From the NCBI GenBank assembly GCA_903828565.1, contig CAIKMQ010000005.1, forward strand, positions 1 through 64,000: a stretch of 64,000 nucleotides of DNA. Direction: 5' to 3'. The translations under genes were made by a program, and so were the position numbers. Under the pieces are notes generated by a model that searched no databases, was not told the origin of the DNA, and saw only the letters and a list, made by a program, of their open reading frames with translations. Numbering within the stretch: the first letter of the stretch is position 1; each line of letters begins with the position of its first letter. Source of the stretch: an uncultured Leptolinea sp. (GTDB lineage: Bacteria; Chloroflexota; Anaerolineae; Anaerolineales; Anaerolineaceae). Positions 30,450 through 56,641 of the stretch are shown here, in pieces.

Positions 30450-31436
30450 ATGGACTGGAATAAAAAGACAATATTGATCACAGGTGGTACCGGCAGCTTT
30501 GGTAAGAAGTTTATTGATATCATGCTGCGCGAGTTTCATCCAGCGAAGATCATTGTGTACAGCCGGGATGAATTGAAGCAGCATGAAATGCGGGTGAAAG
30601 GCTACGAGCACCCCAGCCTGCGTTACTTTATCGGGGATATCCGTGACCTGGAGCGCATGAAACGTGCCATGGAGGGGGTGGATATTGTCGTCCATGCGGC
30701 CGCCTTAAAACAGGTGCCGGCATGCGAATACAACCCGATGGAAGCAGTTAAAACCAACATCCTCGGCACCAGCAATGTCATTGACGCAGCATTGGATACC
30801 GGCGTGGAAAAAGTGATGGCACTTTCCACCGATAAAGCGGTCAGCCCAGCCAATCTGTACGGTGCCACCAAGCTGGCAGCAGAGAAACTGGTCATCCAGT
30901 CCAATGCCTATGCGGGCAATAAACGCACCCGGCTGGCTTGCACCCGCTACGGGAATGTGGTCGGCAGCCGCGGCAGTGTGGTTCCTGTATTTCTGAAACA
31001 GCGTGGCTCCGGCCGATTGACCTTGACCGATGAGCGTATGACACGCTTCTGGCTTTCACTGGAGCAGGGTGTCCATTTTGTCACAGACTGCATCGAGATC
31101 ATGGAAGGCGGTGAAGTATTCGTGCCCAAGATCCCCAGTATGAATATGCCGGACCTGGCAAAGGCCATCGCGCCTGAAGCCCGTATCGAGGTGATCGGTA
31201 TTCGCCATGGCGAGAAACTCCACGAGGTGTTGATCTCTGAAGATGAAGCCCGCACAACGATCGAGCTGCAGGACAAGTATATTGTTCTGCCGGCAGAAGA
31301 AATGTGGTTCGGTAAAGGTTGGCAAGGCAAAGGCAGTAAAGTCGCTGACGGTTTTCGTTACGCCAGCAATACCAACAGCGAGTGGCTGGATATTTCCCAG
31401 ATCCAGAAGATCGTGGAATCGGTGGAAATCGAGTAA
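30450..31436 (+). CDS. UDP-N-acetylglucosamine 4,6-dehydratase (PseB/FlaA1-like)
   Basis: KTILITGGTGSFGKKFIDIML, HAAALKQVPACEYNPMEAVKTNILGTSNVIDAAL, LSTDKAVSPANLYGATKLAAEKL. Confidence 0.93.
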   Translation: MDWNKKTILITGGTGSFGKKFIDIMLREFHPAKIIVYSRDELKQHEMRVKGYEHPSLRYFIGDIRDLERMKRAMEGVDIVVHAAALKQVPACEYNPMEAVKTNILGTSNVIDAALDTGVEKVMALSTDKAVSPANLYGATKLAAEKLVIQSNAYAGNKRTRLACTRYGNVVGSRGSVVPVFLKQRGSGRLTLTDERMTRFWLSLEQGVHFVTDCIEIMEGGEVFVPKIPSMNMPDLAKAIAPEARIEVIGIRHGEKLHEVLISEDEARTTIELQDKYIVLPAEEMWFGKGWQGKGSKVADGFRYASNTNSEWLDISQIQKIVESVEIE

Positions 31437-31439
31437 ACC

Positions 31440-32402
31440 ATGCGCATCCTGGTGACCGGTGCCAGCGGACTGCTGGGTGTGAACTTGGCCAGCGAAGCCT
31501 CCCGTGAGCATGAAGTCACGGGCCAGGTGAATGCCCTGCCGCTTCAGGGAGCCGGTTTCGAACAGATCACCGGTGACCTGATGGAGGATGGAGCCGTTGA
31601 GCAGATGCTGGATCAAGCCCGCCCGGACTGGGTGATTCACTGTGCCGCACTGGCGGATGTGGATGCCTGTGAAAAGGAGCCGGATCTGGCGAAACAGGTA
31701 AACACACTTTTGCCAGGCCGCATCGCTAAAGCCTGCGCCGGCAGGGCAAAGCTGGTGTATATATCCACCGATGCGGTTTTTGACGGCATTCGCGGCGGTT
31801 ACACCGAAGAAGATATCCCCAACCCATTAAGTATCTATGCCCGCACAAAGCTAGACGGCGAAGAGGCTGTTCTAAAAACAGACCCCGCGGCGATCGTGGC
31901 ACGCATCAACATCTTTGGCTGGAGCATCTTCGGAAAACGCAGCCTGGCAGAGTGGTTCTTTTACAATCTGCAAGCAGGGCTGCCGGTAAAAGGCTTCACG
32001 GATGTATTCATCACCACGCAATTGACCACCGACCTGGCCGGCATGCTGCTGGCTATGCTCGCGGGCAACCTTTCGGGGTTGTACCATGTGGTCGGGGCGG
32101 ATTGTGCCAGTAAATATGACTTTGCCTTGCAGATTGCACGCCGCATGGGGATGGATGGATCCCTGGTTTCGCCGGTAAGCGTGGATGCATACGGTTTGAA
32201 AGCTGCCCGCAGCCATAATCTGTGCCTGGATGCCACAAAACTTTCCCGGGTTATCCACAAACCACTCCCGCAGTTATCCACCGGTTTAGACCGGTTCTTT
32301 GAACAATATGCACGCGGTTATCCCCAAGTTCTCCGCAAGATGGTGGATAACTCCATGGAAAACCTGAACCCTTACGCGCAAGGAGGAAGCAGTGGAAATT
32401 AA
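31440..32402 (+). CDS. RmlD-like sugar-nucleotide reductase (extended SDR)
   Basis: MRILVTGASGLLGVNLASEAS, HCAALADVDACEKEPDLAKQVNTLLPGRIAKAC, YISTDAVFDGIRGGYTEEDIPNPLSIYARTKLDGE. Confidence 0.88.
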   Translation: MRILVTGASGLLGVNLASEASREHEVTGQVNALPLQGAGFEQITGDLMEDGAVEQMLDQARPDWVIHCAALADVDACEKEPDLAKQVNTLLPGRIAKACAGRAKLVYISTDAVFDGIRGGYTEEDIPNPLSIYARTKLDGEEAVLKTDPAAIVARINIFGWSIFGKRSLAEWFFYNLQAGLPVKGFTDVFITTQLTTDLAGMLLAMLAGNLSGLYHVVGADCASKYDFALQIARRMGMDGSLVSPVSVDAYGLKAARSHNLCLDATKLSRVIHKPLPQLSTGLDRFFEQYARGYPQVLRKMVDNSMENLNPYAQGGSSGN

Positions 32403-33462
32403 GATCGGCAACCATCTCGTTGGAGAGAACCACCCCACCTACTTCATCGCGGATATATCCGCGAACCATGATGGAGACCTTGAGCGGGCGAAGCTGCTCA
32501 TCCGCCTGGCGAAAGAGGCCGGGGCAGATGCCGCCAAGTTCCAGAATTTCCGCGCCGCGAAGATTGTTTCAGATTACGGCTTCACCCACATGAACAGCCA
32601 GATATCCCACCAGGCAAAGTGGAAGAAATCGGTTTTTGAGGTGTACCAGGGGGCGTCCATCCCCTTCGATTGGACACCGGTATTAAAAGAGGAATGTGAC
32701 CGGGTGGGGATCGATTATTTCTCCTCCCCGTATGATTTTGATGCGATCGATATGCTGGATCCCTATGTTCCGGCTTACAAGATCGGTTCAGGTGACATCA
32801 CGTGGGATGAAGCGCTCGTCCGCATGGCTGGCACCGGAAAACCGGTTCTGCTGGCATGCGGCGCATCACAGATTGGTGAAGTGCAGCATGCCGTGGAAGT
32901 GATCCGCGCCATCAACCCTCAACTGGTGCTGATGCAGTGCAATACCAACTACACCGCCAGCCTGGAGAACTTTGATCATATCCATTTGAATGTGCTCAAG
33001 ACCTTCCGCGCCATGTATCCGGGCCTGGTCCTCGGGCTGTCGGATCATACATCTGGCCACACCACTGTACTCGGAGCGGTGACCCTGGGTGCGCGGGTAG
33101 TGGAAAAGCACTTTACGGATGATAACAACCGGGTCGGTCCTGACCATCCCTTCTCGATGACACCTGCCACCTGGCGTGAGATGGTGGACCGCACCCGCGA
33201 ACTGGAACGGGCATTGGGTTCGGGCGAGAAGGTCGTCTGCATCAATGAACAGCAGACGGTGATTGTGCAGCGCCGCTGCTTGCGAGCCGCTCGGGATATC
33301 CGCGCCGGTGAATTATTCGACCGGGCAATGATCGATGTGCTCCGTCCCGCAACACCGGGTGGTATCCTCCCGAACGATATAAACCGGGTGATCGGGATGA
33401 AAGCCCTGGTGGACCTGCCCACTGGCCGTGAATTGCGCTGGGAAGACCTGGGCGGGGCATGA
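32392..33462 (+). CDS. NeuB-family nonulosonate synthase with C-terminal SAF domain (PseI/SpsE-like)
   Basis: YFIADISANHDGDLERAKLLIRLAKEAGADAAKFQNF, SGDITWDEALVRMAGTGKPVLLACGAS, LSDHTSGHTTVLGAVTLGARVVEKHFTDD; SAF-like RCLRAARDIRAGELFDRAMIDVLRPATPGGI; GTG start. Confidence 0.92.
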   Translation: MEIKIGNHLVGENHPTYFIADISANHDGDLERAKLLIRLAKEAGADAAKFQNFRAAKIVSDYGFTHMNSQISHQAKWKKSVFEVYQGASIPFDWTPVLKEECDRVGIDYFSSPYDFDAIDMLDPYVPAYKIGSGDITWDEALVRMAGTGKPVLLACGASQIGEVQHAVEVIRAINPQLVLMQCNTNYTASLENFDHIHLNVLKTFRAMYPGLVLGLSDHTSGHTTVLGAVTLGARVVEKHFTDDNNRVGPDHPFSMTPATWREMVDRTRELERALGSGEKVVCINEQQTVIVQRRCLRAARDIRAGELFDRAMIDVLRPATPGGILPNDINRVIGMKALVDLPTGRELRWEDLGGA

Positions 33463-35135: not shown

Positions 35136-35966
35136 ATGACTCTGCGGGTACTAGCCATCATACAGGCACGCATGCGCTCCAGCCGCTTACCCCAAAAGGT
35201 GATGCTGGATATTGCCGGTAAACCCATGCTGCAACGGGTGATCGAACGCACAGCCCGCGCACACCGGGTGAGCGATGTGGTTGTGGCCACCACCCGCGAT
35301 GCGGATGAAGACCCGATCGCTGCTTTATGCCATAAGCTGGGTGTTGCTTGTTACCGCGGTAGCCTGCAGGATGTGTTGGACCGCTATTATCGCTGTGCAC
35401 AGCCTTATCAGCCGGATGTGGTGGTACGCATCACGTCGGATTGCCCGGTGATCGATCCCGGTCTGATCGATGAGACCATCCAGGCCCTGACGGGTAACCC
35501 CGGGAAGAACGATCTCTGGATGCCGCAAGGGGATCCCTTGACCTACCGAAGCCCCACCCACCCGGAGATCCCCTGGGATTTCGCAGCCACCAGGCTGCCG
35601 CCTCCCTGGCACCGCACCTTCCCTATCGGGCTGGATGTGGAAGCCTGCACCTTCCCGGCTTTGGGGATCGCCTGGCGAGAAGCCAGCGCGCAGCATGAAC
35701 GCGAGCATGTCATGCCTTACCTCTACCAGGTACCCGGTCAATTCCGTTGTTTTATCGGCAGCTATTCCGAAGACCTGGGAAGCCAACGCTGGACGGTGGA
35801 TACGTCATCAGACCTTGAAATGATCCGTGGGGTATACGCAAAGTTGGGAACCGAGAACTTCGACTGGCTGGATGTATTAAAAGTAGTCCGCGAGCACCCG
35901 GAGTTGAGTGCCATCAATGCGGATGTTCAACATAAATCTTATCTGGATGTGGATACACGGAAATGA
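35136..35966 (+). CDS. SpsF-like cytidylyltransferase/NTP transferase
   Basis: LAIIQARMRSSRLPQKVMLDIAGKPMLQRVIERTARAHRVSDVVVATT, VVRITSDCPVIDPGLID. Confidence 0.9.
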   Translation: MTLRVLAIIQARMRSSRLPQKVMLDIAGKPMLQRVIERTARAHRVSDVVVATTRDADEDPIAALCHKLGVACYRGSLQDVLDRYYRCAQPYQPDVVVRITSDCPVIDPGLIDETIQALTGNPGKNDLWMPQGDPLTYRSPTHPEIPWDFAATRLPPPWHRTFPIGLDVEACTFPALGIAWREASAQHEREHVMPYLYQVPGQFRCFIGSYSEDLGSQRWTVDTSSDLEMIRGVYAKLGTENFDWLDVLKVVREHPELSAINADVQHKSYLDVDTRK

Positions 35967-37961: not shown

Positions 37962-38948
37962 ATGAAAATTCTCATCGCTGGCTTGGGTTCGATCGGACGA
38001 AGGCACTTGCGCAATTTGGCAGCCGAGGGAAGCCACGAGCTCTTGCTCTACCGCACGCATCACGCCACCATGCCGGAAGCAGATCTGGCGGGCTATCCTG
38101 TTTATACTGACCTTACCCGCGCATTGGACCAGAAGCCGGATGCTGTGGTCATCTCCAACCCGACTGCCTTGCACCTGGATGTAGCCATTCCGGCAGCAGA
38201 ACGCGGTATCCATTTGTTATTGGAAAAACCCGTCAGCCATTCTCTGGACCAGGTAGCAGATCTGCAGCGCGCGGTAGTTGAAAATAAGGTTCGTGTACTG
38301 GTAGGCTTCCAATACCGTTTCCATCCCACACTGAACAAGGTGAAAGACTGGCTGGCTGCCGGGGAAATTGGGAACCCTGCCTCCTTCCGGGTGGTGTGGG
38401 GTGAATACCTGCCAGGCTGGCACCCCTGGGAGGATTACCGTGCCAGTTACGCTGCCAGACCGGATTTGGGCGGCGGTGTGACTCTTACCCTGTGTCACCC
38501 CTTTGATTATCTGCGCTGGATGTTTGGCGAAGTCCACTCTGTCTGGGGCAGCGCGGTGAGCGCCCCGGGGTTGGAGATCGGCTCTGAGGGTGTTGTCGAT
38601 GCCGGGTTGACTTTTGAAAGCGGCCTGACCGGAACAGTCCACCTGGATTATGTGCAGCGGCCGGGGACGCATACGCTGGAGATCATAGGATCAGAAGGGA
38701 TGATCCGCTGGTCGAATAATACCGGTGAAGCCGGTTTATACCGCGCAGCCAGCGGGGCATGGGAAAATGCCCAGCCGCCGGAAGGATTTGAACGCAATCA
38801 TCTTTTCACCGCGGAAACTAAAGCTTTTATTTCTATGATAAGTAATGCGTCGCTTTCTCCATGTACCCTGGAGGATGGGATTCATGCATTGCAGATTACC
38901 CGGGCTGTGTTGGATTCGGCAAAATCTGGGCAAAGGATAGCCCTATAA
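37962..38948 (+). CDS. Gfo/Idh/MocA-family oxidoreductase
   Basis: MKILIAGLGSIGRRHLRNL, GIHLLLEKPVSHSLDQ (EKP motif), VGFQYRFHPTLN. Confidence 0.92.
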   Translation: MKILIAGLGSIGRRHLRNLAAEGSHELLLYRTHHATMPEADLAGYPVYTDLTRALDQKPDAVVISNPTALHLDVAIPAAERGIHLLLEKPVSHSLDQVADLQRAVVENKVRVLVGFQYRFHPTLNKVKDWLAAGEIGNPASFRVVWGEYLPGWHPWEDYRASYAARPDLGGGVTLTLCHPFDYLRWMFGEVHSVWGSAVSAPGLEIGSEGVVDAGLTFESGLTGTVHLDYVQRPGTHTLEIIGSEGMIRWSNNTGEAGLYRAASGAWENAQPPEGFERNHLFTAETKAFISMISNASLSPCTLEDGIHALQITRAVLDSAKSGQRIAL

Positions 38949-39078: not shown

Positions 39079-40824
39079 ATGGCTGAAATGACGAAAAAAG
39101 CGAACCTGATCCCTCCCTATGGCGGGAAATTGGTGAACCTGGTTGTAACTGGTAAGGAACGGGATGAACTGGTCGAAAAAGCCACCCACCTGCCGTCCAT
39201 CAAGATCTCTGCCCGCAACCTGTGTGATCTGGAACTGCTGGCCAACGGCTCTTTCTCTCCATTGGATCGCTTCATGGGTCATAAGGATTATGAGCGAGTC
39301 CTGGAGGAGATGCGCCTGGTGGACGGGACCATGTTCCCCCTGCCCATCACATTGACCATTGATAAAGACGCTTATGAATCTCTAGGCGCTGAAGTTGCTC
39401 TGCGTGATGCTCACAACAATCTGGTGGCAGTGATGAAGGTGGAAGAAGCCTTCCCTTATGATAAGGACCGCGAAGCCCGCCTGGCCTATGGCTCGAATGA
39501 CGCCCTCCACCCGATGGTCTCAGAGATGGTACGCTGGGGCAATCTTTGCATTTCGGGTGAATTGAAGGTGGTGAACATGCCCACCTATTACGATTTTAAA
39601 GAGCTGCGCCGTACACCGGCGGAAGTTCGTGCTATGCTGGAAGAGATGGGCAATGACAATGTGGTTGCCTTCCAAACACGCAACCCGCTCCACCGCATCC
39701 ACGAAGAGTTGACCAAACGTGCCGCAGCGGAAGTGGGCGGCAGCCTGCTGATCCACCCGGTGGTCGGCCTGACCAAACCCGGCGATGTGGATCACTTTAC
39801 CCGCGTTCGTATCTACAAAGCACTGGTAGAGAAGTATTATGAACAAGACAGCACAGTCCTCAGCCTGCTGCCTCTGGCCATGCGCATGGCTGGTCCGCGT
39901 GAAGCCCTGCTGCATGGCATCATCCGTCGCAATCACGGTGTCAATCATTTCATCATAGGCCGGGATCATGCCGGACCGGGCAAGGATTCCACTGGCAAGC
40001 CGTTCTACGGCCCCTATGACGCGCAAGAGTTATTCGATTCTTTCGCGGGCGAATTACAGATGAAATCGGTGCCTTTCCAGGCACTGGTCTACCTGCCGGA
40101 TACGAACGAATATGTGGAAGTGGATAAAGTACCTGCCGGTGTGAAAAGCATGGATATCAGCGGCACCCAGGTGCGTGATGATTACCTGGCGAAAGGTAAA
40201 TTGCTGCCGGAGTGGTTCACCCGTCCTGAAACAGCCAAGATTCTACGGCAAATGTATCCTCCTCGCCATAATATGGGATTCTGTATCTGGTTCACCGGCT
40301 TAAGCGGCGCAGGCAAGACAGCCACTGCTGAAGTGCTCACCACCCTGCTGCTGGAACGCGGCAAACAGGTCACCCAGCTGGATGGCGATGTCGTTCGTAC
40401 TCATCTTTCCAAGGGATTAGGCTTCACCAAAGAAGACCGTGACACCAATATTCTGCGCATCGGCTTCGTAGCCAGTGAGATCGTCCGCCATGCCGGTGTT
40501 GTGATCTGCGCTGCCATTTCACCGTACATTGCGATCCGCAACGAAGCCCGCAAGATGGTCGGCACTGATCAGTTCATCGAAGTCTTCGTAGACACACCCA
40601 TCGATGTCTGCGCTTCACGCGATATTAAGGGCTTGTATGCCAAAGCCTTCCGCGGTGAGATCAAGGGCTTTACCGGCGTGGATGATCCATACGAGAAGCC
40701 TGTGAACCCTGAGATCACCCTGGGTACGGTCGGTGTGACCCCCGAAGAGAATGCCCGCATCATTATCAAGCACCTGGAAGAAAAAGGTTACCTGCTTTCG
40801 GATGTGACTGCAGGCGTCGCCTGA
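39079..40824 (+). CDS. Bifunctional sulfate adenylyltransferase / adenylylsulfate kinase (PAPS synthase, Sat-CysC fusion)
   Basis: VAFQTRNPLHRIHEELTKRA and NHFIIGRDHAGPGKD (ATP sulfurylase) followed by FTGLSGAGKTATAEVL, DGDVVRTHLSKGLGFTKEDRDTNILRIGFVA (APS kinase). Confidence 0.97.
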   Translation: MAEMTKKANLIPPYGGKLVNLVVTGKERDELVEKATHLPSIKISARNLCDLELLANGSFSPLDRFMGHKDYERVLEEMRLVDGTMFPLPITLTIDKDAYESLGAEVALRDAHNNLVAVMKVEEAFPYDKDREARLAYGSNDALHPMVSEMVRWGNLCISGELKVVNMPTYYDFKELRRTPAEVRAMLEEMGNDNVVAFQTRNPLHRIHEELTKRAAAEVGGSLLIHPVVGLTKPGDVDHFTRVRIYKALVEKYYEQDSTVLSLLPLAMRMAGPREALLHGIIRRNHGVNHFIIGRDHAGPGKDSTGKPFYGPYDAQELFDSFAGELQMKSVPFQALVYLPDTNEYVEVDKVPAGVKSMDISGTQVRDDYLAKGKLLPEWFTRPETAKILRQMYPPRHNMGFCIWFTGLSGAGKTATAEVLTTLLLERGKQVTQLDGDVVRTHLSKGLGFTKEDRDTNILRIGFVASEIVRHAGVVICAAISPYIAIRNEARKMVGTDQFIEVFVDTPIDVCASRDIKGLYAKAFRGEIKGFTGVDDPYEKPVNPEITLGTVGVTPEENARIIIKHLEEKGYLLSDVTAGVA

Positions 40825-40846: not shown

Positions 40847-41668
40847 ATGCCCAGGATACAGGAGAAGTTCGACCTGACAGGTAAGACAGCCATCGTGACT
40901 GGTGGAACCGGCCTGCTTGGCCGCGAGTTCTGCCGCACGCTGGCTGAAGCTGGCGCGGTAGTGTATGTGGCTGACTTGAATGCCGCTGCCGCGCAATCTT
41001 ATGCGCAGGACCTTATCGCGCAGGGATTCCGTACCGGCTGGTCGGCCGTCAATGTGGCTGATCAGGAGTCAACCCGCGCTATGGTGGATCAGGCTGTCGC
41101 CGGCACCGGCAGGTTGGATATCCTGGTGAACAGTGCCGCTATGGATCCGAAGTTCGATGCTTCTCAAGCCAATCAGCAAAATGGTGGTTTCGAGGACTTC
41201 CCGCTGGATATGTGGCGCGCAGCTCTGGATGTCAACCTGACAGGCATGTTTCTTTGCTGCCAGGCAGCTGCGCGGCAGATGTCCGCCCAGGGGAGCGGCT
41301 CAATGATCAACATCTGCTCAACTTACGGTCTGGTGGGGCCGGATCAACGCATCTATCACCGTCCCGGGGAAGCGCCGCGTTTCAAGCCGGTGTACTACAC
41401 TGTCACCAAAGCCGGCGTGCTTGGCCTTACCCGCTACCTGGCCACCTACTATGCCGGCACGCAGGTGCGCACCAATGCGCTGACACCCGGCGGCGTGTAT
41501 AACGGGCATGATGACCTCTTTACACAAAACTATTCCGCACGCACGGTGCTTGGGCGCATGGCGCGAAAAGACGAAATGAACGGCGCGCTGCTCTTCCTGG
41601 CATCCGATGCTTCCTCGTATATGACTGGTTCCAATGTGGTGGTGGATGGAGGCTGGACAGCATGGTAG
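40847..41668 (+). CDS. SDR-family oxidoreductase
   Basis: DLTGKTAIVTGGTGLLGREFCRTLAEAGAVVYVAD, DILVNSAAMDPK, YYTVTKAGVLGLTRYLA (YxxxK), SSYMTGSNVVVDGGW. Confidence 0.92.
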   Translation: MPRIQEKFDLTGKTAIVTGGTGLLGREFCRTLAEAGAVVYVADLNAAAAQSYAQDLIAQGFRTGWSAVNVADQESTRAMVDQAVAGTGRLDILVNSAAMDPKFDASQANQQNGGFEDFPLDMWRAALDVNLTGMFLCCQAAARQMSAQGSGSMINICSTYGLVGPDQRIYHRPGEAPRFKPVYYTVTKAGVLGLTRYLATYYAGTQVRTNALTPGGVYNGHDDLFTQNYSARTVLGRMARKDEMNGALLFLASDASSYMTGSNVVVDGGWTAW

Positions 41669-42888
41669 CAAAAACAGAGGTACTGGCAGTCATTCCCGCC
41701 CGTGGAGGTTCAAAAGGCATTCCCCGCAAGAACATCCGCAGCTTTGCCGGACATCCGCTTATCGCCTGGAGCATCGCAGCTGCCAGGCAATGCAAACTGG
41801 TGACGCGGGTAATCGTTTCGACGGATGATGAGGAAATTGCCGATGTTGCCCGCCGTTTTGGAGCGGAGACACCATTCATCCGCCCCGCCGATCTGGCACA
41901 GGATCTGACTACGGATTATCCGGTATTCGAGCATGCTCTTGCCTGGTTGAAAGAGAACGAAGGGTATATTCCAGATCTTGTGGTGCAGCTGCGTCCGACA
42001 TCGCCCATCCGCCCTGTGGATATGCTGGAGCATTCCATCCAATTGATGCTGGATCACCCGGAAGCCGATTCGGTTCGCGGTGTCATACCTTCGGGGCAGA
42101 ATCCGTACAAAATGTGGCGCATTGACGAGCACAACCAGATGAAGCCGCTCTTGCAGGTGCAGGGAGTGGACGAGCCTTTTAATTCACCCCGCCAACAGCT
42201 GCCGCAAACCTACTGGCAGACCGGGCACATTGATGTCATCCGAACGGCAACGATCACCGGGCAGCATTCCCTGAGCGGAAAGGTCATTCTGCCGTACCTG
42301 ATGGATCCGGTGTATGCCGTGGATATTGATGGCCCCCGCGACTGGCAGCGGGCTGAATGGCTGGTCTGGAATGGCGGATTCAAGATGGTCTACCCTGGCA
42401 AGGCCCCCCGGCCGCTGCCTGAGAAGTTGCGCCTGGTCGTAATGGATTTTGATGGAGTGCTGACGGATAACCGTGTGTGGGTGGACGAGACAGGAAAAGA
42501 GACGGTTGCTGCCTACCGCAGCGACTCTCTGGGACTGGCTTTATTGCGCCAGAAGACAGGGATCGATTCGATCGTACTTTCCACTGAAAAGAACCCGGTA
42601 GTTAGCGCTCGATGTAAAAAGATGAACGTGCCGGTCATGCAGGGAATCCTTCATAAAGAGGAAGCCCTGGAACAGCTGCTGCGCGAGAGATTGATAGAGC
42701 CGGGCGAGGTGGTTTACATCGGCAATGATGTGAACGACCTGGTGTGCTTCCCGATCGTTGGCTGCGCGGTAGTGCCGGTGGATGCGGAGCCTGACGTACT
42801 GCAGCAGGCGGATATTACCCTGACACGCCGCGGTGGACATGGCGCTGTTCGTGAGCTGTGCGACCTGCTCATGCAGAAGTATGGCTGA
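41662..42888 (+). CDS. Fusion: CMP-nonulosonate synthetase (NeuA-like) + KdsC/YrbI-type HAD phosphatase
   Basis: VLAVIPARGGSKGIPRKNIRSFAGHPLIAWSI (NeuA) then LRLVVMDFDGVLTDNRVWVDETGKETVAAYRSDSLGLALLRQ and YIGNDVNDLVCFPIVGCAVVPVDA (HAD). Confidence 0.95.
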   Translation: MVAKTEVLAVIPARGGSKGIPRKNIRSFAGHPLIAWSIAAARQCKLVTRVIVSTDDEEIADVARRFGAETPFIRPADLAQDLTTDYPVFEHALAWLKENEGYIPDLVVQLRPTSPIRPVDMLEHSIQLMLDHPEADSVRGVIPSGQNPYKMWRIDEHNQMKPLLQVQGVDEPFNSPRQQLPQTYWQTGHIDVIRTATITGQHSLSGKVILPYLMDPVYAVDIDGPRDWQRAEWLVWNGGFKMVYPGKAPRPLPEKLRLVVMDFDGVLTDNRVWVDETGKETVAAYRSDSLGLALLRQKTGIDSIVLSTEKNPVVSARCKKMNVPVMQGILHKEEALEQLLRERLIEPGEVVYIGNDVNDLVCFPIVGCAVVPVDAEPDVLQQADITLTRRGGHGAVRELCDLLMQKYG

Positions 42889-42941
42889 GACAGGCATCAC
42901 CTGCCAAAGACTAGATAAATTAACATTTGAAAGTACCTGAT

Positions 42942-44441
42942 ATGAATAAGCGTAAACTGGTTTATGCTTTCCCTTTTTTATATTCTCTGTTTCCAGTCTT
43001 CTCTTTAAGCTCAAATAACCTAACCTATGTGGATCTGGCGTCCATCATCAGGTCATTATTAATTTCATTGTTATTTACGCTAATAGTTTATCTATTGATA
43101 TTTATAACCACGAAGAATATATATAAGAGTGCCCTTTTCACTTTTCTGGTTCAAACGATCTTTTTCTCGTATGGTCATTTATACTTTTTCTTTGAGACGA
43201 GAGCGCCTGGGATATTTCGTCACAGGTATATGATCTTTGTTTTTCTTGTTATTTTCATTACGGGATCGCTACTAATTCTTCGAAGTAAACGAAGGCATGA
43301 CTCATTCATCCGGTATCTTTTTTGGTCTTCACTTTTTCTGGTAATCGTTTCCATGTATCCTACTGCAGCCAGGACAATACAGGCAATAATCTCGAACGAT
43401 AAACGGACTGCAGAATTATTCAATGCACAAAAGCTAACTAGTCAACTAGTCAAGCCAGATATCTATTTGATCATATTAGATTCTTATACTCGCGCTGATG
43501 TCTTACAAAAAGAATACCAATTTGATAATTCCGAGTTTCTTCAAGAACTAAGCAACCAGGGGTTCTATATCGGAACATGCAGCACGAGTAATTATCCTAG
43601 CACAAGGTTTTCCATCGGATCCTTGATGGAATCTAACTACATACAAGATATATTTCCTGATGGGAATCAAAATCCTTTTAGTATTAGTTTTGTTATCAGC
43701 AATTTGCGATCATTGGGCTATTCGGTTTTTTCGTTTGAAAACAGATCAAAAGGTCATTTTGACCTCGGCGAGGATCGATTGCTCTCCCGCCAACATCCCC
43801 TGGATAATAATGGTTTTGGTGCGAGCGGATTAAATGAATTCGAATCAGAATTATTAGAAACCACCTTCATAAAAGTGTTTATCGATATGCCTCAGCTACT
43901 ACCATTTTTCGATTTAGACAGGGCTGAATATTATGAACACTACCAGCAGGTGAAATACACTGTGTCTGAGTTACCTAACCTGGCAAATGTTGCTTCTCCC
44001 AAGTTTGTTTTTGTACATATACTCGTCCCTCACGAACCATATATCATCACTGAAAATGGCGAGTACAAGTACACCTCAAACAAAGACAAAGAAGGATATT
44101 TATCAGGCATCAAATATATCAATCAGGAGATGCTATCGATCGTCCAAATCCTGATAAGTGAATCCAAAATACCACCGATCATAATTATCCAAGGAGATCA
44201 TGGTTCTGCTCTTCCCGGGGTAACACCAGAGATAAGACATTCTATTCTCAACGCATATTATGTGAATGAGACTACCAAAGCAAACCTTTACCCTTCGATC
44301 TCCCCCGTGAATTCATTTAGAGTGATCTTTAATACTTACTTCGGAACTAACTTGCCACTTCTTGATGATAAGTCATACTTCGCATGGGGAACTTCTCAGC
44401 TGAATGATGGATTCCTTGTTCCGAGTAAGTGCACGCCATGA
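42942..44441 (+). CDS. Membrane-anchored alkaline-phosphatase-superfamily (sulfatase/LtaS/PEtN-transferase-like) protein, AT-rich gene
   Basis: About five N-terminal TM helices; KPDIYLIILDSYTRADVL, CSTSNYPSTRFSIGSLME, KFVFVHILVPHEPYI, IIIQGDHGS metal/nucleophile-type motifs. Confidence 0.78.
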   Translation: MNKRKLVYAFPFLYSLFPVFSLSSNNLTYVDLASIIRSLLISLLFTLIVYLLIFITTKNIYKSALFTFLVQTIFFSYGHLYFFFETRAPGIFRHRYMIFVFLVIFITGSLLILRSKRRHDSFIRYLFWSSLFLVIVSMYPTAARTIQAIISNDKRTAELFNAQKLTSQLVKPDIYLIILDSYTRADVLQKEYQFDNSEFLQELSNQGFYIGTCSTSNYPSTRFSIGSLMESNYIQDIFPDGNQNPFSISFVISNLRSLGYSVFSFENRSKGHFDLGEDRLLSRQHPLDNNGFGASGLNEFESELLETTFIKVFIDMPQLLPFFDLDRAEYYEHYQQVKYTVSELPNLANVASPKFVFVHILVPHEPYIITENGEYKYTSNKDKEGYLSGIKYINQEMLSIVQILISESKIPPIIIIQGDHGSALPGVTPEIRHSILNAYYVNETTKANLYPSISPVNSFRVIFNTYFGTNLPLLDDKSYFAWGTSQLNDGFLVPSKCTP

Positions 44442-44540
44442 GAGTGATTTGTTGATAGACTTACGATATAAGAGAGTCATAGTACAATCATCGGTAAGTC
44501 ACCGGTGTTGATTGACAAAGTTAAACTATAGTGAGTGAGA

Positions 44541-45416
44541 ATGACGAAATCTGTGAAAATTGGTGAAAAGTACGTTGGTGAAGGCCACCCCACCTATATC
44601 GTCGGGGAAATAGGCATCAACCATAATGGCGATGTACAACTGGCAAAGGATATGATCGCTATGGGTGCGCGCTGTGGCCTGGATGCAGTCAAATTCCAGA
44701 AACGCACACCCGAATTATGCGTACCTCCCGAGCAGCGCGGACAAATGCGCGAAACCCCCTGGGGCTATATCAGTTACCTGGATTACCGGTACAAGGTGGA
44801 GTTTAGCGAAAAAGAATATCGCGAGATCGATGATACCTGCCGCGAGCTTGGCATCACCTGGTTCGCCTCAGTCTGGGATGAGCCGTCCGTGGAATTCATG
44901 GAGCAGTTCAACCCGGTGTGCTATAAAATTCCGTCAGCAGCGTTGACCGATCATGGATTACTGAGAGCAGCGCGCAAGACCGGAAGGCCGATCATCCTTT
45001 CCACCGGTATGTCCACTGTGGAGCAGATCACTGCCGCGGTAGAGGCTGCCGGGCGTGACAATCTGGTGATCACCCATACCACCAGTGCTTACCCCTGCGA
45101 ACCGGAAGATCTGAATCTGATGACGATCCGGACACTGCAGCAGCTGTTCGATGTACCCGTTGGATATTCCGGGCACGAGGTTGGCCTGGTACCTTCGGCG
45201 GTGGCAGTGGGATTGGGCGCCTGCCTGGTGGAAAGGCACATCACCATTGATCGCGCGCTTTGGGGTACAGATCAGGCTGCTTCTGTGGAGCCTGAGGGTG
45301 TGGAAAAACTGGTGAAATACATCCGCGTGACTGAAAAATCACTGGGCGACGGCGTCAAGCGGGTCTATGAAAGCGAAATGCCTTCCCTGCGCAAATTGCG
45401 CCGGGTGCAGGAATAA
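44541..45416 (+). CDS. NeuB-family nonulosonate synthase (second copy, no evident SAF domain)
   Basis: YIVGEIGINHNGDVQLAKDMIAMGARCGLDAVKFQKRTPE, KIPSAALTDHGLLRAARKTGRPIILSTGMST, VGYSGHEVGLVPSAVAVGLGACLVERHITIDRALWGTDQAAS; ends soon after the barrel. Confidence 0.93.
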   Translation: MTKSVKIGEKYVGEGHPTYIVGEIGINHNGDVQLAKDMIAMGARCGLDAVKFQKRTPELCVPPEQRGQMRETPWGYISYLDYRYKVEFSEKEYREIDDTCRELGITWFASVWDEPSVEFMEQFNPVCYKIPSAALTDHGLLRAARKTGRPIILSTGMSTVEQITAAVEAAGRDNLVITHTTSAYPCEPEDLNLMTIRTLQQLFDVPVGYSGHEVGLVPSAVAVGLGACLVERHITIDRALWGTDQAASVEPEGVEKLVKYIRVTEKSLGDGVKRVYESEMPSLRKLRRVQE

Positions 45417-47026: not shown

Positions 47027-48604
47027 ATGAAGACGCTGGAACAGCGGGAGAAGGTTCCCTTCCACCCCTTGCTTTTTGCCCTGTACGGGCCGCTGGCGTT
47101 GATGGCCAGCAATATTCTGCAGATACGGCCGGGGGATGCCCTCCGGTCGTTGATCGTTTTTTTGATCCTGGGATTGATCGTATTCGGCCTGGCGCGGCTG
47201 ATGACAAAAAGCTGGCAGCGCGGCGCGCTGGCAGCATCCCTCTTTCTGCTGCTGTTCATCAGCTATGGGCAGGTGCTTAGCCCGCTGAAAAGCATCAGCT
47301 GGGGTGGAGAGATCATTGGCAGGCACCGATACCTGATCCCTGCTTTTCTGTTGATCGGCGGGCTGGGTTTCTGGGGTATCTCAAGATTAAAGGGGAATCT
47401 ACGCGGAATGAATGGCGCGGCTAATCTTGCTGCCCTCGCCCTGATCGTGTTCCCAGTATTCCAGCTGGCATCCACCGCAGTCATGACTGCCCGGAATGAA
47501 AAGCTTAACAAGGCATCTGTGGATACCATTGCTGCAGACGGAACAAACACCGTCACGGTCAAACCGGATGTGTATTACATAATTCTGGATATGTATGGCC
47601 GGGATGATGTTTTAAGTGAAAGATATCATTACGATAACAGTGCCTTCCTGACCCAGCTCGAAGACATGGGCTTCATTATCACGCGCTGCAGTGTCACCAA
47701 TTACAACATGACCGAGCTTTCCCTGGCTTCCAGCTTCAATATGAACTACCTGGATACACTGGGCGACCAGTATACAGCGGGGAGCACGGATCGCAGCGGC
47801 CTACCGTCCCTGATCCATCGCAGCGCGGTACGTTCCATATTCCAGCAAATGGGGTACCGGTTTATTAATTTTGAAAGCGGGTTTACGTTTACCGAGATTC
47901 GGGATGCCGATGAATTCCTCATCCCCTCGTATGTGGAACTGGAAAACAAAGGCCGGAGTCTTCAAATGAACGCCTTTGAATCCCTGCTGGTGAAGACAAC
48001 AGGCTTCGTGATCGTGGAAGACGCACAAACCCGCTGGCTTTCACCTGTGGTGGATGCTTTGGATATGCGGCGCATCCATGTGGTACGCGAACTCTACCTG
48101 CTGGATAAACTGCCAACATTGGCTGCTGGAGAGCCATCCCCCAAATTCGTCTATGCGCATATTCTCATTCCGCACCCGCCATTTGTTTTCTCATCGCAGG
48201 GTGTCAATCTGGAACTCCCATCCAGTTATGGCCCGGATGGCAAAGGGCCTTCTGAAAAGGACTACGGCATCGGTTACCGCAATCAGTTGGACTACATCGA
48301 TGCCCGACTGATCCCGATATTACAGCAGATCATTGCCGATTCAGAGACTCCACCGATCATCATCGTTCAGGGAGATCACGGCGTGGATCCGAAACGCTCC
48401 TTCATACTGAATGCCTATTATCTGCCGGAACAGGCAAAGTCACCCGCCTGGCAGAGTATCTCCCCGGTCAATACTTTCCGTATGGTATTAAACACCTATT
48501 TTCAGGGAACCTACCCGTATCTGCCGGATACAAATTTTGCATCCACAGACAAAGCGCCATTCGATTTCACAATCATTGAGAATGAAAGGGTTTGCCAGCC
48601 TTGA
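47027..48604 (+). CDS. Membrane-anchored alkaline-phosphatase-superfamily protein (paralogue of 42942-44441)
   Basis: KPDVYYIILDMYGRDDVLSERYHYDNSAFL, CSVTNYNMTELSLASSFNM, KFVYAHILIPHPPFVF, IIVQGDHG, SISPVNTFRMVLNTYF align with the earlier paralogue. Confidence 0.8.
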   Translation: MKTLEQREKVPFHPLLFALYGPLALMASNILQIRPGDALRSLIVFLILGLIVFGLARLMTKSWQRGALAASLFLLLFISYGQVLSPLKSISWGGEIIGRHRYLIPAFLLIGGLGFWGISRLKGNLRGMNGAANLAALALIVFPVFQLASTAVMTARNEKLNKASVDTIAADGTNTVTVKPDVYYIILDMYGRDDVLSERYHYDNSAFLTQLEDMGFIITRCSVTNYNMTELSLASSFNMNYLDTLGDQYTAGSTDRSGLPSLIHRSAVRSIFQQMGYRFINFESGFTFTEIRDADEFLIPSYVELENKGRSLQMNAFESLLVKTTGFVIVEDAQTRWLSPVVDALDMRRIHVVRELYLLDKLPTLAAGEPSPKFVYAHILIPHPPFVFSSQGVNLELPSSYGPDGKGPSEKDYGIGYRNQLDYIDARLIPILQQIIADSETPPIIIVQGDHGVDPKRSFILNAYYLPEQAKSPAWQSISPVNTFRMVLNTYFQGTYPYLPDTNFASTDKAPFDFTIIENERVCQP

Positions 48605-50226
48605 GCGCATTGCAGCAGCGGATCACCCGGATAAGCAGCCGTTTGCGCGGAGCATGGAGCCGGCGGCAGAACGATGCAGCCCTGAAAGCTATGGCTCAAC
48701 TGGTGGCATCGCGTGCCCGACCGCAAAAGAGCCAGACACCCGTTGTCTTGTTCAATGCATCTACGCGCTTGAGTGGCTTAAGCCTGAATGCAGCGTTTTC
48801 CCTGTTGACAGCCTGGGGGTTGCGCCTGAGGGGTATACCCGTGATCCATTTTGTCTGCCAGCAGGGTATGAGCCGTTGCGTGTTGGGTACCAACCGGGAT
48901 GATGTCAGTCAGACACCGCCTTGCGAACAGTGCATTGCACATTCGAGAATGGAGTATTTTGGTGCTGATGTGCGCTGGTTTGGGTATACCCGCGATGAGA
49001 AGCTGGCACGCATTATCCAGGGGATGAGCTTGACCGAATTGGAGCAGCTGGTCTTCAATGATCTGCCCCTGGGTAAGCTGGTGATGCCGGCGTTACGCTG
49101 GGAACTCCGCAGGCACCATCTGGTGGAGGATGACGCTACCCGCTTTTTGTACCGGGAGTTCATCCTTTCAGCCTGGAATGTTGCTGTGAATTTCTCAAAG
49201 GTATTGGATGAAGTCAAACCGCAGGTTGTGCTGGTTTTCAACGGCCAGTTCTTCCCTGAAGCCACAGCCCGCTATCTTGCCCGCCAGCGCGGTATTCGCA
49301 CGGTGGCCCATGAGGTGGGGTTGATGCCGTTCACGGCCTTCTTCACAGAAGGGGAAGCCACAGCCTATCCTATCGATATCCCGGATGGCTGCAAGCTGAC
49401 ACAGGCGCAGGATGAAAAACTGGATGCATACTTGCAGAAACGCTTCCAGGGCAACTTCAAGATGGCTGGCATCCAATTCTGGCATGGCATGCGTCCGCTG
49501 GACCCCGAATTGCTGCAAAAGATGGCGAAGTTCCGCTGGACGGTTCCGGTATTTACCAATGTGATCTTTGATACCAGCCAGCCGCATTCCAATGTGATCT
49601 TCCCGGATATGTTCACCTGGCTGGATGAAGTATTGACATTGGCAAAACGGCATCCGCAGGTTCTCTTCATTATCAGGGCGCACCCCGATGAGTTACGTCC
49701 CGGATCAGCCAAGCAAAGCCGAGAGACGGTGAGAGACTGGGTGAAGAGCTCCGGCGCGCTGGATTTGCCCAACATCCATTATATCGACCCGCTGGAGTAT
49801 GTCAGTTCCTATGAATTGATCCAGCGATCCAAATTCACGATGGTGTACAACTCCAGCATCGGCCTAGAGGCAGCCATCATGGGAGCCGCGGTGCTATCTG
49901 CCGGGCGCTCCCGCTACACGGCCTACCCGACTGTTTTCTTCCCGCCGGATCGGGCTGCCTATCAACAAAAGGTGGAAGAGATGCTATTCGCGGAAGAGAT
50001 TCGCGTACCAATTGAATTTGTCCGCATGTCGCGCCTTTTCCTGTATTACCAGTTGTTCAAGACTGGGCTGCCATTCAGCGAATACCTGCAAGAAAGTAGT
50101 CGCCCTGGACTGGTAAAAATTAAGAATTTTAAAGTGGATCAATTACTGCCGGATAGGTCAGTTTCATTGGGTGTGATTTGGCGCGGATTAATCGAAAACG
50201 GTAGTTTCTATCTGGAGAATGAATGA
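48601..50226 (+). CDS. Capsule-polysaccharide biosynthesis-like GT-B protein with Cys-containing insert
   Basis: TTG start overlapping the previous stop; HPQVLFIIRAHPDELRPG, MVYNSSIGLEAAIMGAAVLSAGRSRYTAYPTVFFP; CVLGTNRDDVSQTPPCEQC. Confidence 0.68.
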   Translation: MSALQQRITRISSRLRGAWSRRQNDAALKAMAQLVASRARPQKSQTPVVLFNASTRLSGLSLNAAFSLLTAWGLRLRGIPVIHFVCQQGMSRCVLGTNRDDVSQTPPCEQCIAHSRMEYFGADVRWFGYTRDEKLARIIQGMSLTELEQLVFNDLPLGKLVMPALRWELRRHHLVEDDATRFLYREFILSAWNVAVNFSKVLDEVKPQVVLVFNGQFFPEATARYLARQRGIRTVAHEVGLMPFTAFFTEGEATAYPIDIPDGCKLTQAQDEKLDAYLQKRFQGNFKMAGIQFWHGMRPLDPELLQKMAKFRWTVPVFTNVIFDTSQPHSNVIFPDMFTWLDEVLTLAKRHPQVLFIIRAHPDELRPGSAKQSRETVRDWVKSSGALDLPNIHYIDPLEYVSSYELIQRSKFTMVYNSSIGLEAAIMGAAVLSAGRSRYTAYPTVFFPPDRAAYQQKVEEMLFAEEIRVPIEFVRMSRLFLYYQLFKTGLPFSEYLQESSRPGLVKIKNFKVDQLLPDRSVSLGVIWRGLIENGSFYLENE

Positions 50227-51092
50227 TTCAATTGCCGTTGCAAGTAAAAGTGCCATTAAAGCAGGTTCGCTGGCAATTACGCAGGACACAGGCTGGCCTT
50301 CGTTGGGGTAATGCCGAATTGCAGCGCATGCCGGTGGTGATCGCGAATTCCATGCCGAAATCCGGTTCCCACCTCATCATCCAGATCCTCGAAGGCCTGC
50401 CGCAGATCGGTCCGTTCGTGAATCCCGGTGTGCCGCCTCTCAACCGGAACGAGAGGAACGACAAACAACCGGATGATGTAATCATCCAGAAGTTACACCG
50501 GTTGAAACCGGGCGATTTCACTTATTGCTACCTTCCGGCAAAAGAGCCGTTCGTTTCGGAATTGTTGAACCCACGGATTGCGCCGATCTTTGTATCACGT
50601 GATCCTCGTGATACGATCATCTCGCATGTTTTCTATGCCACCGAGTTGAACCCGAAGCACCAGCTGAGGCCGTATTACCGAGATGTGCTGAAAACTATGG
50701 AAGAGCGGATCGATGCCACGATCCACGGCATCAACGATGGCGAATATCGTTTGGGAAATGTTGCAGTAAAGTACCGCGCGTATCTCCCCTGGTTTGAACA
50801 CCCCGAGGTACTGTGCCTGCGATTTGAGGATCTGGTGTTGGACCGCAACGCATCCATTGCCCGCATCCTGGATCTGTTGGCTGCCCACGGGTTTACCCCG
50901 CGTGTCTCCCGCGATGAAGCCATTCAAAAACTGGCAGGGTCGATCCAACCGAAACGCTCCGGCACCTTCCGCAAAGGACAGCCGGGGAACTGGCGCGAGC
51001 ATTTTACAGCAGCGAATATCCGGCACTTTAAAGAAAAGACCGGGGATCTGTTGATCCAGATGGGTTACGAGAAGAACAGGGACTGGAAATGA
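50223..51092 (+). CDS. PAPS-dependent sulfotransferase
   Basis: ANSMPKSGSHLIIQILEGL (5'-PSB), VSRDPRDTIISHVFYATELNP (3'-PB), RSGTFRKGQPGNWREHFT (RKGxxGxW motif). Confidence 0.92.
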   Translation: MIQLPLQVKVPLKQVRWQLRRTQAGLRWGNAELQRMPVVIANSMPKSGSHLIIQILEGLPQIGPFVNPGVPPLNRNERNDKQPDDVIIQKLHRLKPGDFTYCYLPAKEPFVSELLNPRIAPIFVSRDPRDTIISHVFYATELNPKHQLRPYYRDVLKTMEERIDATIHGINDGEYRLGNVAVKYRAYLPWFEHPEVLCLRFEDLVLDRNASIARILDLLAAHGFTPRVSRDEAIQKLAGSIQPKRSGTFRKGQPGNWREHFTAANIRHFKEKTGDLLIQMGYEKNRDWK

Positions 51093-51979
51093 GCATACCT
51101 GGCGAGTTAAAAGTGATTTTAAAATTCCAGACAAAACTGGTTAGGCGGGTCTGGCGGCGTTACAAGAAACAGAATGCCTTACACAGAGCTGGTTCGCCCG
51201 GGCTGGAGAGCTCCCCGGTGTTCTTCACCAATTCTTTCCCGAAAAGCGGAACCCATCTGCTTACCCAGGTGTTGGAAGGCTTTCCGCTGGTTGGACCGGC
51301 TGTGGATAGCGGGCTGCCTGCCGTGGTCATGTTCGAAGGTGCCAGCGGCAGAGAACGCACAACCCGCGAGATCTTACGGGATTTACGGAACCTTTCTCAC
51401 GGGGATATTGGTTATGGCCATCTGCATGCTCGGCCTGAGATTGTGGATCTTTTTACCGCTGAAGATTTCTGTGCGTATTTCATCTTAAGAGATCCGCGGG
51501 ATGTGGTTGTTTCGCATGTCCACTACGTGACGGATATTGAACCGAACCATGTTCATCACCAATACTATACGCAAACTTTAAAAACATTCGATGAACGCTT
51601 ACGCACCAGCATCTTAGGCAGACCGGATGCAGCCAACCCGTTCCCGGATATTGCCGGCCGTTTCGCGCCGTTTTTGGGTTGGATGTCGCAACCATCCGTA
51701 CTGGCATTGAAGTACGAGGATTTCAATACAGATCGCGCAGCTGCGGTTGGTACAGTTTTACAGCATGCAGTCAAGCGCGGCTTTCAGTTGACCACATCGC
51801 AAGAACAAGCGGTCGAGCTATTGATGGCTCAAATGGACCCGCAGCGTTCACCCACCTTCCGTCAGGGAAAGTCGGGCGGCTGGCGGGCAAAGTTCACGGA
51901 TGAGCACAAATCCCTTTTCAAGCAGGTGGCTGGCAGCCTGTTGATCACCCTGGGATATGAACAAGATGAGAACTGGTAA
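51089..51979 (+). CDS. PAPS-dependent sulfotransferase (tandem second copy)
   Basis: TNSFPKSGTHLLTQVLEGF, LRDPRDVVVSHVHYVTDIEP, RSPTFRQGKSGGWRAKFT. Confidence 0.92.
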   Translation: MSIPGELKVILKFQTKLVRRVWRRYKKQNALHRAGSPGLESSPVFFTNSFPKSGTHLLTQVLEGFPLVGPAVDSGLPAVVMFEGASGRERTTREILRDLRNLSHGDIGYGHLHARPEIVDLFTAEDFCAYFILRDPRDVVVSHVHYVTDIEPNHVHHQYYTQTLKTFDERLRTSILGRPDAANPFPDIAGRFAPFLGWMSQPSVLALKYEDFNTDRAAAVGTVLQHAVKRGFQLTTSQEQAVELLMAQMDPQRSPTFRQGKSGGWRAKFTDEHKSLFKQVAGSLLITLGYEQDENW

Positions 51980-54938: not shown

Positions 54939-55628
54939 ATGCCCGTTAAGAAGATCATTGCACTGGTGCCGATGCGGCATCACTCGCAGCGGGTGCCGGG
55001 TAAGAATTACCGACCAATGGCCGGCAAACCGTTGTATGCGCATATTATTGAAACCCTGCTGCAAGTCCCGCAGCTTGCCGGCATCTTTGTGGATACCGAT
55101 AGCGATGCGGTGCTGGAGGGATTGGCCAGGGATTACCCGACCGTGATTTGTCACCGCCGGCCGGAATCTCTGCGCGCGGATGATATCCCCATGAACGAGA
55201 TTCTGATGCACGATACTGAACAGGCACCCGCAGACCTGTACCTGCAGACCCACAGTACAAATCCCCTGTTGAAGGCAGCGACCATCTCAAATGCGATCGA
55301 TGCGCTGCTGCAGAAATACCCGGCGTACGATTCGCTCTTTGGGGTTACCCGCCGACAGGTGCGTTTCTATGATGAGCTGGGACGGCCGATCAATCACAAC
55401 CCCGCCATCCTGCTGCAGACCCAGGACCTGCCGCCAGTCTATGAGGAGAACTCCACTATGTACCTGTTCACCCGGCAGACCCTGGCAGCCAGGCGAAACC
55501 GCCTGGGTGAACGGCCTATGATGTTCGAAGTGGATCCGCGCGAGGCATGGGATGTGGATACCGAAGTAGATTTTTCAATCGCAGAGATGATGCTGCTGGC
55601 TCGCCAGGCAGAAGGTTCCAAATACTAA
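54939..55628 (+). CDS. NeuA-like cytidylyltransferase
   Basis: IIALVPMRHHSQRVPGKNYRPMAGKPLYAHIIETLL, DLYLQTHSTNPLLKAATISNAI, FEVDPREAWDVDTEVDFSIAEMML. Confidence 0.88.
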   Translation: MPVKKIIALVPMRHHSQRVPGKNYRPMAGKPLYAHIIETLLQVPQLAGIFVDTDSDAVLEGLARDYPTVICHRRPESLRADDIPMNEILMHDTEQAPADLYLQTHSTNPLLKAATISNAIDALLQKYPAYDSLFGVTRRQVRFYDELGRPINHNPAILLQTQDLPPVYEENSTMYLFTRQTLAARRNRLGERPMMFEVDPREAWDVDTEVDFSIAEMMLLARQAEGSKY

Positions 55629-55665
55629 ACAGAAGGTACCGGTTGCCACCGGGGATTGGAGCAGG

Positions 55666-56640: not shown

Positions 56641-56641
56641 G

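Follow-up and report, generated by a model that had tools for sequence, protein, structure and literature searches.

A NeuA-HAD fusion of mosaic ancestry in Anaerolineales, with a probable role in a phosphorylated Kdn-type nonulosonate route

The window, meaning the whole 64,000-nucleotide stretch of DNA that was analysed, contains a glycan cluster in which a single gene encodes a NeuA domain followed by a HAD domain. This gene and the features that bear on its function are as follows:

37962-38948, forward strand: Gfo/Idh/MocA oxidoreductase in a PtmF-like position, conserved in the cluster
39079-40824, forward strand: bifunctional ATP sulfurylase/APS kinase (PAPS supply), in the cluster
40847-41668, forward strand: SDR oxidoreductase (adh_short_C2; PtmA-like), a conserved neighbour
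41662-42888, forward strand: fused NeuA and HAD (type C0, KdsC-like) gene, 408 residues from an ATG start
41683-42375, forward strand: NeuA domain, residues 8-238, with the ARGGSKGIPRKN nucleotide-binding motif, R177/Q178 and D223
42415-42885, forward strand: HAD domain, residues 252-408, with D262, D264, S307, K332 and G354-N355-D356-x-N358-D359
44535-45416, forward strand: short NeuB-family synthase without a SAF domain, predicted to be a Kdn-9-P (NulO-9-P) synthase
48592-50226, forward strand: conserved downstream gene, a candidate CMP-ulosonate transferase
50223-51979, forward strand: two sulfotransferase-domain genes (50223-51092 and 51089-51979)

The fused gene and the SDR gene upstream of it overlap by 7 nt (start of the former, stop of the latter), an arrangement suggestive of translational coupling. 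The earlier note had read the open reading frame at 41662-42888 as a NeuA joined to a KdsC/YrbI-type HAD, and this call is borne out by Pfam, NCBIfam, PDB and fold comparisons alike, with the motifs that it quoted (ARGGSKGIPRKN, DFDGVLTDN and GNDVNDL) all present. Pfam places CTP_transf_3 at residues 9-143 with 82 bits, above its cut-off, and the NeuA half bears the ARGGSKG.P.KN motif, the Arg-Gln pair and the metal-binding Asp; its substrate loop is of the 'YWQTGHID' type, as opposed to the 'LETG / YENG' type of the streptomycete and animal domains. The best-scoring NCBIfam model for this half is PseF (TIGR03584), at 166.5 bits and thus below the curated cut-off of 205.7. At the C-terminus, Pfam finds HAD matches, among them Hydrolase_3 at 22.6 bits against a cut-off of 20.9. 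KdsC-type HAD matches span residues 252-406, and over residues 254-406 both the KdsC/YrbI model (TIGR01670; 91.2 bits against a subfamily cut-off of 106.95) and the curated equivalog for Kdn-9-P phosphatase (NF058599; 86.4 bits against 180) match below their curated cut-offs. Sequence and fold searches of the PDB relate the N-terminal half to solved NeuA enzymes (6ifd, 9ftc and 1eyr by Foldseek) and the C-terminal half to KdsC-type HADs, headed in Foldseek by 3mmz from Streptomyces avermitilis and followed by YrbI/KdsC proteins, the C-terminal domain of mouse CMAS and BT1713. The earlier note had also proposed a structure prediction of both domains and a check of the catalytic Asp pair of the HAD. 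The AlphaFold model, for which 26 fused proteins were aligned, has a mean pLDDT of 91.5 with both folds matched, and D262 and D264 are both kept; the relative packing of the two domains appears less sure, the pTM being 0.72. The putative HAD 3mmz is itself an almost exact match to the HAD halves of the streptomycete fusions.

The HAD half presents a complete set of catalytic motifs, namely DxD, the motif II Ser/Thr, the motif III Lys and the acidic residues of motif IV. All 91 fused proteins gathered, 90 of them distinct, keep both Asp residues of the DxD motif, nucleophile and second Asp, along with the Lys of motif III and two Asp of motif IV; D262, D264, S307, K332, D356 and D359 are conserved across the fused set together with E309 and K320, and the nucleophile, second Asp, Lys and Glu/Lys pair are invariant in the alignment of 26 sequences. 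So many distinct proteins with invariant catalytic residues exclude a chance fusion or an assembly error. The first acidic position of motif IV is Asn in 91 of 91 fused HADs (GND), with the second and third Asp retained. This change, like the scores of the HAD half below the curated cut-offs, weighs against the main reading, although the same Asn is present in the streptomycete enzymes.

This architecture had been likened in the earlier note to that of animal CMAS, and the likeness stands for the order of domains: vertebrate CMAS (1qwj, 3ewi) also has a NeuA followed by a HAD-fold domain. The C-terminal domain of the mouse enzyme, which shares the GN(D/E) of motif IV with the fusion, is reported to lack phosphatase activity (PMC8636478), and the HAD half of the window protein could by the same token be a structural, oligomerising module without catalysis, its NeuA half serving a phosphate-free route. 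The mouse domain, however, has Asn in place of the nucleophile Asp, with GNE in motif IV, and it is the invariance of the catalytic residues and of the Glu/Lys pair among the fusions that disfavours a structural role; equivalent clusters without a fusion moreover contain free-standing HADs, and the absence of catalysis is quite unlikely. The NeuA domain of animal CMAS likewise groups with PpNeuA and the streptomycete-type side and is not close to that of the window, so that the fusion has neither the non-catalytic HAD nor the animal-clade NeuA of the vertebrate enzymes.

As to the substrate of the HAD half, the NCBIfam and PDB matches to KdsC could indicate a Kdo-8-P phosphatase that happens to be fused to NeuA. 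A search of the 99%-complete genome for KdsA found it absent, leaving no Kdo-8-P to dephosphorylate, and the curated KdsC cut-offs were missed. Furthermore, the KdsC structures 3mn1 and 4um5 have Arg at the position of BT1713 residue 56 and Ser or Glu at that of residue 67; the window HAD has Glu in place of this Arg, its E309 and K320 being the equivalents of E56 and K67 in BT1713, and Glu and Lys occupy these positions in 91 of 91 fused HADs. The Kdo-8-P reading was rejected on these grounds and is barely tenable. BT1713 from Bacteroides thetaiotaomicron (3e81, 4hgo) is a type C0 HAD with the same catalytic residues and the same E56/K67 pair, but it is free-standing, groups with unfused HADs and has GDD rather than GND in motif IV; the synthase and CMP-Kdn synthetase of this bacterium are likewise separate from it. 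The PDB holds E56A (4hgq) and E56A/K67A (4hgr) mutants of BT1713, the title of the latter entry naming a mutant of a Kdn-9-P phosphohydrolase, and from these entry titles and general knowledge the two residues presumably help to set specificity for Kdn-9-P. The pair may suit Neu5Ac-9-P or other NulO-9-P as well, and by itself it is no proof of Kdn. The entry 3e81 was deposited as an acylneuraminate cytidylyltransferase, yet its chain comprises the HAD only.

A second line of evidence comes from the partner synthase. Wherever a NeuB lies within 4 kb of a fused gene on the same strand it lacks SAF (86 of 86, over all loci collected); single-domain NeuA genes are linked to NeuBs of either kind, with or without SAF. 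The SAF-less NeuBs of the fusions and the synthases of the streptomycete cassettes form one group (support 99/100). The streptomycete cassettes share with the window the order of the fusion, the larger HAD group with its Glu/Lys pair and an adjacent SAF-less NeuB, 56-60% identical to that of the window, but their NeuA half is only about 35% identical and of another clade, and neither an SDR nor a Gfo/Idh gene is present beside them. Six streptomycete genomes have no NeuB other than the SAF-less one of the fusion pair, and five of these six have no CTP_transf_3 gene other than the fused one. Kdn is a constituent of a teichulosonic acid in the walls of streptomycetes (PMC11481543), and the genes for this polymer have been assigned in S. 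coelicolor to SCO4873-SCO4882 (PMC13011467). The streptomycete fusion and NeuB pair is accordingly presumed to make CMP-Kdn, and the fusion cassettes are probably Kdn/teichulosonic-acid genes. Since the streptomycete NeuA half belongs to a different lineage, the specificity of its activation step cannot be transferred to the window enzyme.

The intact HAD residues, the E56/K67-type pair, the absence of KdsA, the constant SAF-less NeuB, its position as the sole NeuB of six streptomycetes, a group whose walls contain Kdn, and a HAD above the NF058599 cut-off (186.4 bits against 180) in a Bacteroidota module of the order NeuB-NeuA-Gfo/Idh-SDR-HAD (L107) all favour, at the level of sequence, the suggestion of the earlier note that a phosphorylated intermediate of a Kdn-9-P/Neu5Ac-9-P-like route is involved. 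On this basis a phosphorylated route of the Kdn-9-P type appears well supported, and the window protein probably (at roughly 0.7) performs two steps of a phosphorylated nonulosonate route whose donor would be CMP-Kdn or a modified CMP-Kdn. Such routes are better known from animals, streptomycetes and Bacteroides. Another bacterial fusion that has been read as part of an animal-like phosphorylated NulO route is Leptospira NeuB2 with its C-terminal 'phosphatase' domain, although there the extra domain is carried by the synthase and not, as the HAD of the window fusion, by NeuA (PMC3438082). In the window genome a sulfatase-family gene (42927-44441) separates the fusion from its NeuB, a point counted against the main reading; relatives mostly have the NeuB immediately after the fusion. 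A gene resembling this sulfatase lies at 47027-48604.

The same phosphorylated route could be Neu5Ac-like, with ManNAc-6-P and PEP giving a Neu5Ac-9-P that the fusion would dephosphorylate and activate. The Glu/Lys pair of the BT1713 type may fit the 9-phosphates of several nonulosonates and the WecB epimerase makes UDP-ManNAc, but no hydrolysing epimerase of the NeuC type was found in the genome, in which WecB is the sole strong match to Epimerase_2; there is thus no ready source of free ManNAc, and the presence of WecB as the only strong UDP-GlcNAc 2-epimerase argues against Neu5Ac. A ManNAc kinase gene is not apparent within the cluster either, and the sister cassette of streptomycetes goes with Kdn. 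In a study of granular sludge, where annotation did not distinguish Neu5Ac from Kdn synthases, Kdn was the second most abundant NulO of the extracellular polymers, which were also sulfated, and anaerobic granules yielded no NeuAc (PMC10483923). A Neu5Ac-like product is unlikely on this evidence.

The SDR and Gfo/Idh genes are kept with the fusion in Anaerolineales and with a single NeuA elsewhere, giving the cluster the gene content of a NulO-epimerisation module: an adh_short_C2 SDR and a second oxidoreductase linked to a NeuA. PtmF of legionaminic loci, for which the published term is oxidoreductase, is taken here to be of the Gfo/Idh type. SDR-NeuA-Gfo/Idh trios correspond to PtmA-LegF-PtmF in such loci, for example in Plesiomonas (PMC4481668). 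These neighbours, together with the best score of the NeuA half being to PseF, albeit below cut-off, could point to a legionaminic/pseudaminic-type route with a phosphorylated precursor, yet the conserved neighbours (in relatives, homologues of window genes only) include no aminotransferase or N-acetyltransferase, and the PseB and SAF-bearing NeuB of the window constitute a separate set. The 6-deoxy precursor of legionaminic acid, moreover, has no 6-OH to hold a phosphate, and a role of the fusion in such a route is very unlikely.

A functional parallel for the oxidoreductases of the phosphorylated Kdn-type route may lie in Acinetobacter, where EpaB, an adh_short_C2 SDR, and EpaA, a CTP_transf_3/reductase protein, were shown to make the C8 epimer of a NulO (PMC12053666), and where the SDR AciE and the ElaABC set have been assigned to similar NulO steps (PMC12053666, PMC5595891, PMC9676051). 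These NulO-modifying systems share with the window a CMP-transferase accompanied by an adh_short_C2 SDR, another oxidoreductase or both, but EpaA joins CTP_transf_3 to an aldo-keto reductase and has no HAD, and the sugars concerned are pseudaminic and legionaminic. By analogy, the Anaerolineales SDR and Gfo/Idh pair may epimerise Kdn, with the NeuA half activating the modified sugar.

The fusion is a fixed feature of its group. Within a phylum sample of 400 genomes, it occurs in 34 of 34 genomes of two Anaerolineales families (10 listed genomes of its own family and 24 of the second), nearly always at full length and with 53-66% identity to the window protein; that of Bellilinea caldifistulae has 66%, and the named relatives place the carrier group in Anaerolineales/Anaerolineaceae, Chloroflexota. 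In the remaining families of Chloroflexota, NeuA and HAD are separate genes, often clustered with NeuB, SDR and Gfo/Idh oxidoreductase genes. Elsewhere, the best 80 matches of a contig scan include fusions from many Streptomyces, Microbacterium, Aeromicrobium, Kiritimatiellae, Rubritalea, Phycisphaerales, Chthonomonas, a Methanomicrobiales bin and Prochlorococcus, with Verrucomicrobiota and Planctomycetota among the phyla represented in the matches listed. One locus (L007; G367:C41:3-2544) has two NeuA copies in tandem, one with an in-frame TGA and the other cut by the contig end, followed by a full NeuA-HAD fusion, possibly an intermediate of domain replacement or else an assembly artefact.

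A phylogeny of the fusion against separate genes, which the earlier note had likewise proposed, places the NeuA half with single-domain NeuAs and the HAD half with fused HADs, so that the two trees conflict. That of NeuA puts the Anaerolineales half inside the single-domain NeuAs of Bacteroidota and Verrucomicrobiota (support 97/93), which adjoin Gfo/Idh and SDR genes; the NeuA halves of the other fusions lie far away, in a group with mouse CMAS and the CMP-Kdn synthetase of Prymnesium. A single origin of the fusion that includes the window NeuA half was rejected, one clade of fused NeuAs, defined beforehand by architecture, giving an AU p of 8e-6. The Anaerolineales HAD half groups with the fusion HADs of Kiritimatiellae, Rubritalea, Methanomicrobiales and another member of Chloroflexota (97/89), and the AU test allows all fused HADs to form a single clade (p = 0.47). 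Descent of this HAD from the unfused HADs of Gfo/Idh-SDR clusters was rejected (AU p = 0.0027, for a group picked after inspection of the tree). The modules of Bacteroidota and Verrucomicrobiota with NeuB-NeuA-Gfo/Idh-SDR(-HAD) content (L105, L107) resemble the window in their SDR, their Gfo/Idh and a NeuA of neighbouring lineage that is up to 56% identical (56% in the Bacteroidota module), but their NeuA and HAD are separate, their HAD belongs to another clade, and their NeuB is 33-35% identical. The mouse CMAS query was checked against PDB chains; an attempt to place its HAD gave an end branch of 4.64.

The fused gene is thus a mosaic, the HAD half and the short NeuB sharing ancestry with the streptomycete-type cassette and the NeuA half with the NeuAs linked to SDR and Gfo/Idh genes. 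With just 160 columns in the HAD alignment, the ancestry of that half is moderately sure. The mosaic is most simply explained by an older fusion of NeuA and HAD, paired with a SAF-less NeuB, in which the NeuA half was replaced by one from an SDR-Gfo/Idh module; an independent second fusion that used the same HAD lineage is a possible alternative. The mosaic ancestry shows that the layout common to animal CMAS and the bacterial fusions originated, or was put together anew, on more than one occasion, and the fusion connects a cassette of the Kdn-9-P type with a NulO-modifying module.

The following scheme is a proposal as regards the substrate, the sequence of the reactions, the epimerisation and the polymer that results. 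Synthesis of Kdn-9-P requires Man-6-P, and the genome, from which PMI type I is absent as a source, encodes a bact-PGI_C protein of the bifunctional phosphoglucose/phosphomannose isomerase type outside the cluster that could supply it. From PEP and a hexose 6-phosphate, in all likelihood mannose-6-P, the SAF-less NeuB (44535-45416) would form Kdn-9-P by condensation. The C-terminal HAD half of the fused protein would take off the 9-phosphate, and its N-terminal NeuA half would then join the free sugar acid to CTP. Before or after activation, the SDR and Gfo/Idh enzymes would probably oxidise and re-reduce the sugar to an epimer, and the final donor, CMP-Kdn or a modified CMP-Kdn, would pass through a Capsule_synth-type transferase to a surface glycan. 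The Capsule_synth family includes the CMP-Kdo transferases of capsules, and orthologues (L034, L039) of the candidate transferase at 48592-50226 exceed the cut-off for this family (PF05159), with the window copy falling below it. The presence of PAPS synthesis and two sulfotransferases within the glycan cluster suggests that the surface polymer is probably also sulfated. A gene resembling the candidate transferase lies at 27210-28811.

A more specific version of the scheme is tentative, a possibility rather than an expectation: Anaerolineales would make an undescribed epimer, or an oxidoreductively modified form, of Kdn by means of a chimeric enzyme whose HAD half acts on Kdn-9-P and whose NeuA half acts on the modified sugar, an ancestral Kdn-cassette fusion (or its HAD) having been combined with a NeuA from a Gfo/Idh-SDR module. 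No enzyme assay or glycan analysis for any member of Anaerolineales was found; the chimeric enzyme is directly testable and possibly leads to a new nonulosonic acid. As a sequence marker for the phosphorylated (Kdn-type) route, the combination of a NeuA-HAD fusion with a SAF-less NeuB is also a simple candidate.

Other nonulosonate genes accompany the cluster. The NeuB at 32392-33462 carries SAF, groups with enzymes of the PseI/SpsE type and lies near PseB and an SpsF-like gene; it belongs to a separate system, and the objection raised in advance by the earlier note, that the linked NeuB enzymes might use only non-phosphorylated hexosamines, therefore concerns this gene and not that at 44535-45416. 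This second set (30450-33462 and 35136-35966) comprises PseB (488.9 bits, above cut-off), an RmlD-like reductase, the SAF-bearing NeuB and an SpsF-like CTP_transf_3 protein, and no PseC aminotransferase was seen beside it. Two further loci with NeuA genes of the type found in the window, L079 and L122, lie on contigs that binning assigned to Thiomonas intermedia and Klebsiella pneumoniae, probably in error; L079 is 62% identical to the window protein across the full fusion. Finally, in a block at 54939-58227 that is kept in many relatives, a third CTP_transf_3 gene (229 residues) precedes genes for a D-2-hydroxyacid dehydrogenase, an SDR and an MptE-like protein; the block possibly serves another CMP-activated sugar acid.
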